Below, piece by piece: positions 20,981-22,938 of a DNA stretch of 64,000 nucleotides (position 1 is the stretch's first letter; the number at the start of each line of letters is the position of its first letter). The notes under the pieces are model-generated. The model had not been told where the DNA came from and searched no databases. It was given only the letters and a program-made list of their open reading frames with translations. Both the position numbers and the translations under genes were made by a program. This stretch comes from an uncultured Marinococcus sp. (lineage in GTDB: Bacteria; Bacillota; Bacilli; Bacillales; Marinococcaceae). Where the stretch lies: positions 310,001 to 374,000 of the forward strand of contig NZ_CANLSU010000001.1 of assembly GCF_947493875.1 (NCBI RefSeq). Direction: 5' to 3'.

Positions 20981-21149
20981 GCGACTATCTGAACCTTCCT
21001 TTGTGATGATGTCTTTTTCCGATTTACATGCTACCATACCTTAGGTTTGAAAGATATCTACAAAGACGAAAAGTGGGCACCCCTGCAGTAAACTGCCTGG
21101 CGGAGGCTTTAAAATATAGAGAGAATGGGATAAAGGTGGAGGGATGTTC

Positions 21150-22262
21150 ATGCAGGCATATGCAGACTTTTGGATGGAATGGCAGAGACGTATTGTAGAA
21201 CTGCCCTGGATTGATATAGGCGTAGCTGTTTTGATTGCACTTCTCGTGTTTGCCTTTCGGAAGTTATTTACTAAATACATTTTCAGGTTCATTTTAAAAA
21301 TGACTCACCAATCGAGATCACAGCTGTTCACCAATGTTTTGGTATCGTTTGAACGGCCGATTCGTATGTTTTTCGCCGTATTCGGTATATATTTGGCGCT
21401 TTTGTATCTGCCGATACCGTGGGATTCCATGACAATTATCAACCGCCTGTACGGTTCCATTTTAATCATACTTGCAGCTTGGGGGACATACAAGCTGCTG
21501 AACACGTCTTCGATGCTCTTCAACCCGATGATTAAAAGGCTCGAGGGCAAGGAAGACAATATGCTGGTTCCCTTTCTTTCCCGGGTGCTCCGGATTATTA
21601 TCGTGGCGCTCGCGTTCACCATTATTCTCTCTTCCTGGGGCTTTAACATTAACGGCTTTGTGGCAGGGCTCGGCCTTGGAGGTCTGGCCTTTGCCCTCGC
21701 CGCTCAGGATATGGTGGCTAATTTTATCGGCGGCATAATTATTGTCGTGGAACGCCCGTTTAAGCGGGGGGACTGGATTTATACGCCGACGGTGGAAGGA
21801 ATTGTGGAGGATATTTCGTTTCGGAGCACGAAGGTGCGTACCTTTGCTGACTCAATTGTCATCGTTCCAAACAACACACTTGCCCATGAGGCGATTACAA
21901 ACTGGAGTGAAATGCGTAAGCGCGAAATTAACATGACGCTTGGCATTGAATATCAGACGCCGCGGGAGCAGGTGCTGCAGCTGCGGGAGCGTCTTGAGGA
22001 AATGCTGAACAGCCGGGAGGATATCGATAAAGAAATGATTCTTGTGCAGTTTAAAGAATTTAACAGCTCCTCGCTCGACCTGTGGGTTTACTGTTTTACG
22101 AAAACAACCGCGTTTTTGGAATGGGCTGAAATAAAAGAAGAGCTGAATCTTGAAATCATTCGCATCCTTCAGGAGGAAGGCGTTCAGTTTGCCTACCCAA
22201 CACAGTCTATTTATATTGAAAAATCACCTGAAGAAAATTATCACATGTCCGACAATAATTAA
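21150..22262 (+). CDS. MscS-family mechanosensitive channel (YhdY-like)
   Basis: About 370 residues, similar in length and layout to B. subtilis YhdY. Four N-terminal membrane helices lead into the pore-lining helix rich in Gly and Ala (GFVAGLGLGGLAFALAAQDMVANFIGG), followed by the cytoplasmic beta domain (VVERPFKRGDWIYTPTVEG…FRSTKVRTFADSIVIVPN). Expected to release solutes on hypo-osmotic shock, in the cytoplasmic membrane. The SD GGAGG fits ATG 21150 (about seven bases) better than ATG 21144. A second MscS homologue (YkuT type) lies at 27.9 kb. Confidence 0.9.
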   Translation: MQAYADFWMEWQRRIVELPWIDIGVAVLIALLVFAFRKLFTKYIFRFILKMTHQSRSQLFTNVLVSFERPIRMFFAVFGIYLALLYLPIPWDSMTIINRLYGSILIILAAWGTYKLLNTSSMLFNPMIKRLEGKEDNMLVPFLSRVLRIIIVALAFTIILSSWGFNINGFVAGLGLGGLAFALAAQDMVANFIGGIIIVVERPFKRGDWIYTPTVEGIVEDISFRSTKVRTFADSIVIVPNNTLAHEAITNWSEMRKREINMTLGIEYQTPREQVLQLRERLEEMLNSREDIDKEMILVQFKEFNSSSLDLWVYCFTKTTAFLEWAEIKEELNLEIIRILQEEGVQFAYPTQSIYIEKSPEENYHMSDNN

Positions 22263-22275
22263 GCGGGATTCACGG

Positions 22276-22303
22276 TTGGCAAACAAAACGTACATGTTAT
22301 AAT
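22276..22303 (+). promoter_or_regulatory. Sigma-A promoter of the HPr-like gene
   Basis: TTGGCA (22276-22281), 16-base spacer, TATAAT (22298-22303). Confidence 0.8.
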
Positions 22304-22346
22304 AAGAATGTTTGTCAGAAGGAATATGTACGTAAAAAAGGAGCCG

Positions 22347-22751
22347 ATGCATTCGATGGAACGAGTGGAAACATTCGTGTTAACCCGTGGACTGAATGCC
22401 AGTCAAGTATTGTCGTTTGTGCATGAACTGGAAACATTTAAAGCAGATGTGTTTTTTGAAAAGCGGAGAACCTCCGCAAACGGAAAAAGCGTACTCGGTA
22501 TGATGTCTTTGTTTACAAGCATCAGACTTGGTGACAAAGTGGAACTCAAGGTACACGGAGAGGATAAAGAAGCAGTTGCCAGGGTGGCAGCTGAATATCT
22601 TGGAGAAGCAGTAGAGCATGAGAATAATAACGGCTATTGGGAAGACGAAGCAGCGGAGCATGTGGAACGGGCAATGGCCGGATGCATGGCCCACTGGAAT
22701 CCCAATGTACGAAATATTGCACGCTCGTATCTGAAAACGACACGCAGCTAA
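22347..22751 (+). CDS. HPr/Crh-like protein with C-terminal extension, no catalytic histidine
   Basis: About 134 residues. Residues 5-85 align by eye with HPr/Crh: TRGLNASQVLSFVHELETF occupies the active-site segment but lacks the His-15 of HPr (HARPA), while TSANGKSVLGMMSLFTSIRLG matches the regulatory-serine region (Ser48 here, Ser46 in HPr/Crh). KVELKVHGEDKEAVARVAAEYL completes the fold. A ~50-residue extension (GYWEDEAAEHVERAMAGCMAHW…) is unlike Crh. So it should not carry PTS phosphate but could be an HPr-kinase substrate or CcpA partner (inference). Start may be ATG 22347 or 22356, both near AAAGGAG. A strong promoter drives it. Confidence 0.8.
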   Translation: MHSMERVETFVLTRGLNASQVLSFVHELETFKADVFFEKRRTSANGKSVLGMMSLFTSIRLGDKVELKVHGEDKEAVARVAAEYLGEAVEHENNNGYWEDEAAEHVERAMAGCMAHWNPNVRNIARSYLKTTRS

Positions 22752-22754
22752 CAG

Positions 22755-22789
22755 GAAGACCCGGCGCCGGGAAAAGCGTCCGGGTCTTC
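22755..22789 (+). terminator. Hairpin after the HPr-like gene
   Basis: GAAGACCCGG (22755-22764) / CCGGGTCTTC (22780-22789). A 10-bp stem without a clear T-run. A cre-like palindrome, AGGAAACGTTTTCT, follows at about 22802-22815 (two mismatches to cre). Confidence 0.5.
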
Positions 22790-22938
22790 AGCTGTATTAT
22801 CAGGAAACGTTTTCTAAGCCTGGATAATGCTAAGCATATCACAAGCCAAATAGGGTAAACTAAAAGGGACATGAATCATATGTACTGGTTGTATAATACA
22901 AGCAGTAATAACGAATGACACGGAAGGAAGAATGCTTT

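Follow-up and report, generated by a model that had tools for sequence, protein, structure and literature searches.

The locus comprises a small gene for an HPr-like protein, preceded on the same strand by a conserved neighbour, a gene for an MscS-type mechanosensitive channel (21144–22262, forward strand, Pfam MS_channel domains). Positions are those of the window, that is, the whole stretch of 64,000 nucleotides of Marinococcus DNA analysed here, and all features lie on its forward strand. A sequence-only reading of this DNA had placed the open reading frame at 22347–22751, which is correct and corresponds to 134 amino acids; an alternative ATG at 22356 gives 131. The ATG at 22356 is the one that aligns across orthologues, and in the orthologue L016 the upstream ATG stands directly before a stop codon. 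The 131-residue protein encoded by 22356–22751 is therefore the likelier product. Its regulatory serine is residue 45 counted from 22356 and residue 48 counted from 22347. The gene is preceded by a Shine–Dalgarno sequence, AAGGAG (22338–22343), and consists of an HPr domain (22356–22607, approximately residues 1–84) and a C-terminal extension (22608–22748) that ends in ARSYLKTTRS. The protein is 94–98% identical in M. luteus, M. halotolerans and M. halophilus.

As had been claimed, the gene has its own consensus promoter. A sigma-A-type sequence, TTGGCA-16-TATAAT (22276–22303), matches 11 of 12 consensus bases, which 1 of 300 shuffles equalled, and the same hexamers and spacing recur in five Marinococcus genomes. 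The −35 hexamer is weaker elsewhere, and a perfect TATAAT is the best −10 in 19 of the 21 family members scanned, the exceptions being L013, which has a TATAAT further upstream, and L016. Downstream lies a terminator-like hairpin with no clear T run (GAAGACCCGG...CCGGGTCTTC, 22755–22789), which the other four Marinococcus genomes retain in slightly altered form as judged by eye; it suggests a single-gene transcript. The cre-like palindrome that had been pointed out just downstream (22801–22816) was rejected as a cre site. It agrees with a cre consensus at 13 of 16 positions, a score equalled or bettered at 240 of 127,968 window positions (both strands). M. halotolerans shares the sequence, M. 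luteus, M. halophilus and G061 (the last by eye) do not, and it would precede the next gene.

Pfam PTS-HPr is the sole Pfam match of the window protein at E ≤ 1 (46.2 bits, E = 4.8e-12). The genome holds four PTS-HPr matches, the window protein being the weakest; the other three are the His-containing HPr, Crh and one more paralogue, which has Gln15 (L003, G000:C15:19073–19312). This paralogue reads Gln15-Ala-Arg17-Asn and DGKSLMGMMN at the two sites and, by eye, lies near a recombinase-like gene. The NCBIfam models for HPr and Crh score the window protein below their cut-offs: 23.5 bits for PRK13780 (HPr; cut-off 110, own HPr 141.7), 32.3 for TIGR01003 (HPr; cut-off 47.9, own HPr 116.9) and 45.5 for PRK13782 (Crh; cut-off 123, own Crh 145). 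AlphaFold2, with six sequences as input, predicts a β-α-β-β-α-β-α arrangement followed by two C-terminal helices (mean pLDDT 68); for the Alteribacillus orthologue it predicts an HPr fold and three short helices (mean pLDDT 74). Averaged over ten residues, the pLDDT of the window model is 69–87 up to residue 80, 51 in the next block and 39–54 beyond residue 90; over the two models together the range beyond residue 90 is 39–57. A Foldseek search returned 35 PDB chains at E ≤ 0.001, all titled as HPr, Crh or complexes containing one of them. We regard an HPr fold as virtually certain, and the original assignment of the protein as HPr/Crh-like stands.

The catalytic histidine is missing, as first read. 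The codon at 22395–22397 specifies Asn, where the HPr of the same genome has His and Crh has Gln, and across 29 family members the residue there is Thr, Ser, Asn, Pro, Ala, Arg or Gln, and never His. The segment NGKSVLGMMS, containing the HprK target serine, is intact in the window protein, again in agreement with the first reading. HPr itself shares the fold and the NxKSxxGxMS segment but differs from the window protein in having His15, Arg17 and Pro18 and in lacking the extension; its gene, ptsH, is followed in this genome by a gene taken by eye for ptsI, whereas the window gene is not beside ptsI. The window protein very probably has no PTS role.

Searching with a profile built on the first orthologues gave full-length members in 16 of the 29 genomes of family f1 (genome families are denoted f). 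Outside f1, six further members came from 397 genomes sampled evenly across the order, and 398 genomes sampled from the class contributed members from f88, f63, f77 (two genomes), f75 and f65. A member is present in 1 of 22 f2 genomes (18 of the 22 matched over the HPr domain only, and three gave no match at E ≤ 1e-12) and in 3 of 42 genomes of the order of G739. The family is thus patchy. Of the profile alignments, A1 has row L013 one codon too far upstream, and A3 has rows L013 and L052–L054 displaced by one to six codons, which we judged harmless for profile searching. Five of six distant members scanned match Pfam PTS-HPr; L125 has neither a Pfam match at E ≤ 0.01 nor an NCBIfam match and owes its membership to the family profile (67.7 bits). 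In a tree of HPr domains, 27 members form one clade with support 100, apart from Crh-type sequences (outsiders: 20 Crh-type genes and paralogues and one His-type HPr; members L047 and L123 left out). These proteins almost certainly constitute a distinct HPr-like family, set apart from Crh. A tblastn search of plasmid and phage collections gave no homologue of the Alteribacillus protein. Our literature search, with limited coverage of subscription journals, found no HPr relative with an extension of this kind or controlled by TnrA; this Bacilli branch of the HPr family is apparently undescribed in the literature searched.

The C-terminal extension that had been noticed is a conserved feature of the family. 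It spans approximately 45 residues, is kept in 15 members aligned, and its conserved end is present in 26 of 29. The pattern W-E-E-E-G...E-T-V-E-K-A-M...W-x-P-x-V-R-x-V-A-K-S-Y-L-K is common to f1, f45 and f6 and looser beyond. L124 (f75) and L126 (f65) have no C-terminal extension, and L123 (f77) stops early; L126 (G490:C93:85289–85543) has instead approximately 60 extra N-terminal residues, and Asn at position 46. The description of the tail as Trp-rich is loose: it has two Trp, one shared by 25 and the other by 22 of the 29 members. As to its helix-like character, AlphaFold2 predicts helices at 100–111 and 116–130, with low confidence. A tail profile found no convincing relative in the PDB (three weak matches, the best, at E = 0.037, to a designed protein). 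Among the 398 class genomes it matched four: our own, those of two family members, and one with an ORF (L131) that has no HPr domain and was taken as a chance match. The C-terminus of TnrA binds glutamine synthetase, and a comparison of the tail with TnrA showed no similarity. By eye, an ORF immediately downstream of one member (L122, G462:C5) resembles a PTS EIIA component.

What distinguishes the genes of many relatives is the sequence upstream of them. Passages of PMC6191146 give TGTNAN7TNACA as the common TnrA/GlnR consensus, and an excerpt of PMC4475385 gives the TnrA site as TGTNANAWWWTNTNACA. A perfect TGTNAN7TNACA box lies at most 330 nt upstream of 12 of the 29 members, in eight families and 8 of 15 genera: L013 and L014 (f1), L023 (f2), L052 (f45), L053–L056 (f6), L057 (f8), L121 (f88), L125 (f63) and L126 (f65). 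The remaining 17 have no perfect box. In contrast to the family, none of 40 HPr-type control loci has one (one HPr gene and 39 Gln15 genes, of which 38 are Crh-type and one is the paralogue L003, with 39 distinct upstream stretches), nor does any of 29 mscS loci, which include one of the two pieces of a broken mscS in G026. Upstream stretches were first counted from the beginning of each match, a point inside the gene in some mscS loci and distant family members; a second scan of the controls, with adjusted starts, likewise gave none. The 477 kb of fetched regions contain 19 perfect boxes, of which nine lie upstream of an HPr-like gene (expected, 0.13); collapsed by genus, the enrichment is 5 of 12 genera (P = 1e-8; a recount gives 10 genera for the 19 regions), these statistics treating as independent regions that, as relatives, are not. 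Shuffles of six upstream stretches yielded a perfect box in 0.3–0.9% of cases.

The boxes also tend to stand at a fixed place. In 8 of 12 members the centre of the box is 38–39 nt before the −10 element, that is, near −50, and this element is TATAAT in seven and TACAAT in one. TnrA-activated promoters generally carry their box near −50. Two more f1 members, L009 and L017, have one-mismatch boxes at 38 nt; the spacing is 44 in L052 and 29 in L125, and in L057 and L126 the box precedes the HPr domain by over 250 nt and the usual spacing is absent. The upstream regions of L121 and L125 contain two perfect boxes each. Those of L125 lie one on each side of the −10 element, resembling the nif promoter treated in part of PMC6191146, where a site lying before the −35 (58 bp upstream in that case) is read as activating and one directly following the promoter as repressing. 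The main text of PMC9948412, on GlnR sites in Paenibacillus polymyxa, does not mention HPr, Crh or ptsH.

The distribution of regulators was compared with that of the gene. In G028 (f2), tnrA is the next gene, starting approximately 60 nt after the homologue, an arrangement seen in one genome; it makes nitrogen regulators or glutamine synthetase candidate partners of the protein. Within f1, 14 of the 15 gene-bearing genomes searched (all but G061) contain tnrA (E ≤ 1e-30), as do 8 of the 13 that lack the gene, a difference that is not significant (one-sided P = 0.056). The one gene-bearing genome of the 15 without tnrA, G012, has a homologue with an altered tail and no box; this homologue (L019, G012:C28:18577–18972) has its tail end changed in a genome with no TnrA/GlnR-like match at E ≤ 1e-8, possibly a case of decay after loss of the regulator. 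In G660 and G739, boxes are present but the TnrA matches are weaker and GlnR-like. We consider it likely, with good confidence, that the relatives' genes are under TnrA/GlnR control.

The window gene departs from this pattern. No box with zero or one mismatch occurs in the 330 nt upstream of it, the best match having two mismatches and lying 61 nt before the −10 element, and none occurs in the 160 nt upstream of the gene in five Marinococcus genomes. The tnrA gene of the genome lies elsewhere, 5 kb past the window end (C1:379008–379301). Nitrogen control in Marinococcus is thus unsupported, and with a near-consensus promoter in place of the box the protein is probably made constitutively there. 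From the upstream sequences, the boxes and the tnrA neighbour point to nitrogen control of the family, with the window copy excepted, and it is this nitrogen signature, rather than the cre-like site, that is the informative feature.

We propose that the protein is a non-PTS signalling adaptor with an HPr fold, nitrogen-controlled in relatives and phosphorylated by HprK at the equivalent of Ser46, a reading to which we give an even chance. In the relatives, TnrA or GlnR would turn the gene on under nitrogen limitation. HprK/P would phosphorylate Ser46 when carbon, and with it FBP and ATP, is plentiful, so that the presence of the protein would reflect a shortage of nitrogen, and its phosphorylation a good supply of carbon. 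One of its two forms, phosphorylated or free, would then bind a partner, the tail adding specificity, and carbon status would thereby be read out during nitrogen limitation. The regulators that the sequence-only reading had proposed to look for are all encoded elsewhere in the genome (HPr, Crh, HprK and CcpA), and hprK is present in 61 of 61 genomes, our own included. Control by HprK is possible by analogy with Crh, which has no His15 and can accept a phosphate on Ser46 (PMC9631020), is phosphorylated by HPrK and, when unphosphorylated, inhibits MgsA (PMC13130090). That the window protein is itself an HprK substrate seems to us a finely balanced proposition. In the nitrogen PTS of Proteobacteria, the HPr homologue NPr is likewise tied to nitrogen; NPr keeps a phosphorylatable His. 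The NPr model matched one of five relatives scanned (18.4 bits, cut-off 119) and did not match the window protein.

The serine itself bears on the alternative that fares best, an adaptor that is not phosphorylated, in which Ser46 serves as a helix N-cap and binding is left to the tail. Ser46 caps a helix and is kept in the HPrs of bacteria without HprK, so its conservation is no proof of phosphorylation. The serine (Ser45 of the window protein, 22488–22490) was said to be conserved, and on comparison with relatives it is, in 26 of 29 members; the other three have Asp (L057), Gly (L124) and Asn (L126), and position 47 is occupied by seven residue types, both of which suit an unphosphorylated adaptor. 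Against it, Lys45 is invariant in the 29 members and Leu48 and Gly49 each occur in 28 of them, which looks like a recognition site, and two of the three exceptions at position 46 are divergent members without the extension. We hold this alternative to be unlikely, though not negligible. The third exception, L057 (G080:C12:21220–21591), is a distant member whose Asp resembles a phosphomimetic.

The protein could also be a second Crh, that is, an HprK-phosphorylated co-repressor for CcpA with the tail as decoration. Crh of Bacillus has the same fold, also lacks His15 and keeps the Ser46 segment; both HprK and CcpA are available, and Crh is the best PDB sequence match of the family profile (1mo1, 55.6 bits), with the B. 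anthracis chain 3ihs, which bears the name HPr (50.3 bits), ranking next after the Crh chains and all others scoring at most 45 bits. But Crh has approximately 85 residues, no extension and the motif Gln15-Ala-Arg17-Pro18, and it falls outside the fully supported clade of the family. Arg17 matters for CcpA binding. It is present in 8 of 29 members and lost in 21, and Pro18 is present in none; the window protein has Ser and Gln at these positions, where the HPr and Crh of the same genome both have Arg17 and Pro18. Together with the unconserved cre-like site, these differences make a second Crh improbable. The original suggestion of a phosphorylation-sensing regulator separate from sugar transport holds in outline, as a regulator outside the PTS; a plain Crh-like role with CcpA is not supported.

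A partnership with the adjoining MscS channel, for instance as its regulator in the osmotic response, is suggested by position: in 18 of 20 regions, spread over three families, the gene is preceded by mscS in the same orientation, at most three predicted genes intervening. Yet mscS is present in all 29 f1 genomes and the full-length HPr-like gene in 16, and in the other 13 mscS is followed, by eye, by LysR/MFS genes or a dap-type gene, in some with an unplaced ORF in between. Other neighbours (c2 and c4) are likewise common to the regions, and no such channel gene occurs within 8 kb of the f2 and f8 members or, by eye, within 1.5 kb of those in f63, f75, f77, f88 and f65. We read the adjacency as a conserved place rather than a partnership, which we think quite improbable.

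Finally, the patchy distribution, the long Marinococcus branch and the altered tail in G012, whose genome has no TnrA/GlnR-like match, might suggest a decaying, functionless paralogue, but this is very improbable given that dN/dS against M. halophilus is far below 1 (window, 0.045; M. luteus, 0.037; M. halotolerans, 0.029; G061, 0.072), for the extension alone as well (0.01–0.06). All ten Marinococcus pairs compared are below 1, the closer ones, at 0.01–0.25, having too few changes to be informative. The window gene is under purifying selection.

The proposed HprK-controlled adaptor can be taken one step further, tentatively, to a Gram-positive sensor of carbon/nitrogen coincidence that would be expressed through TnrA/GlnR under nitrogen limitation, phosphorylated by HprK, and act on nitrogen regulators or glutamine synthetase. 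HprK, Crh and CcpA are usually seen as carbon control and TnrA and GlnR as nitrogen control. If the proposal is true, an HPr-like protein with TnrA/GlnR boxes upstream of its gene and an HprK target site within it would join the two directly.
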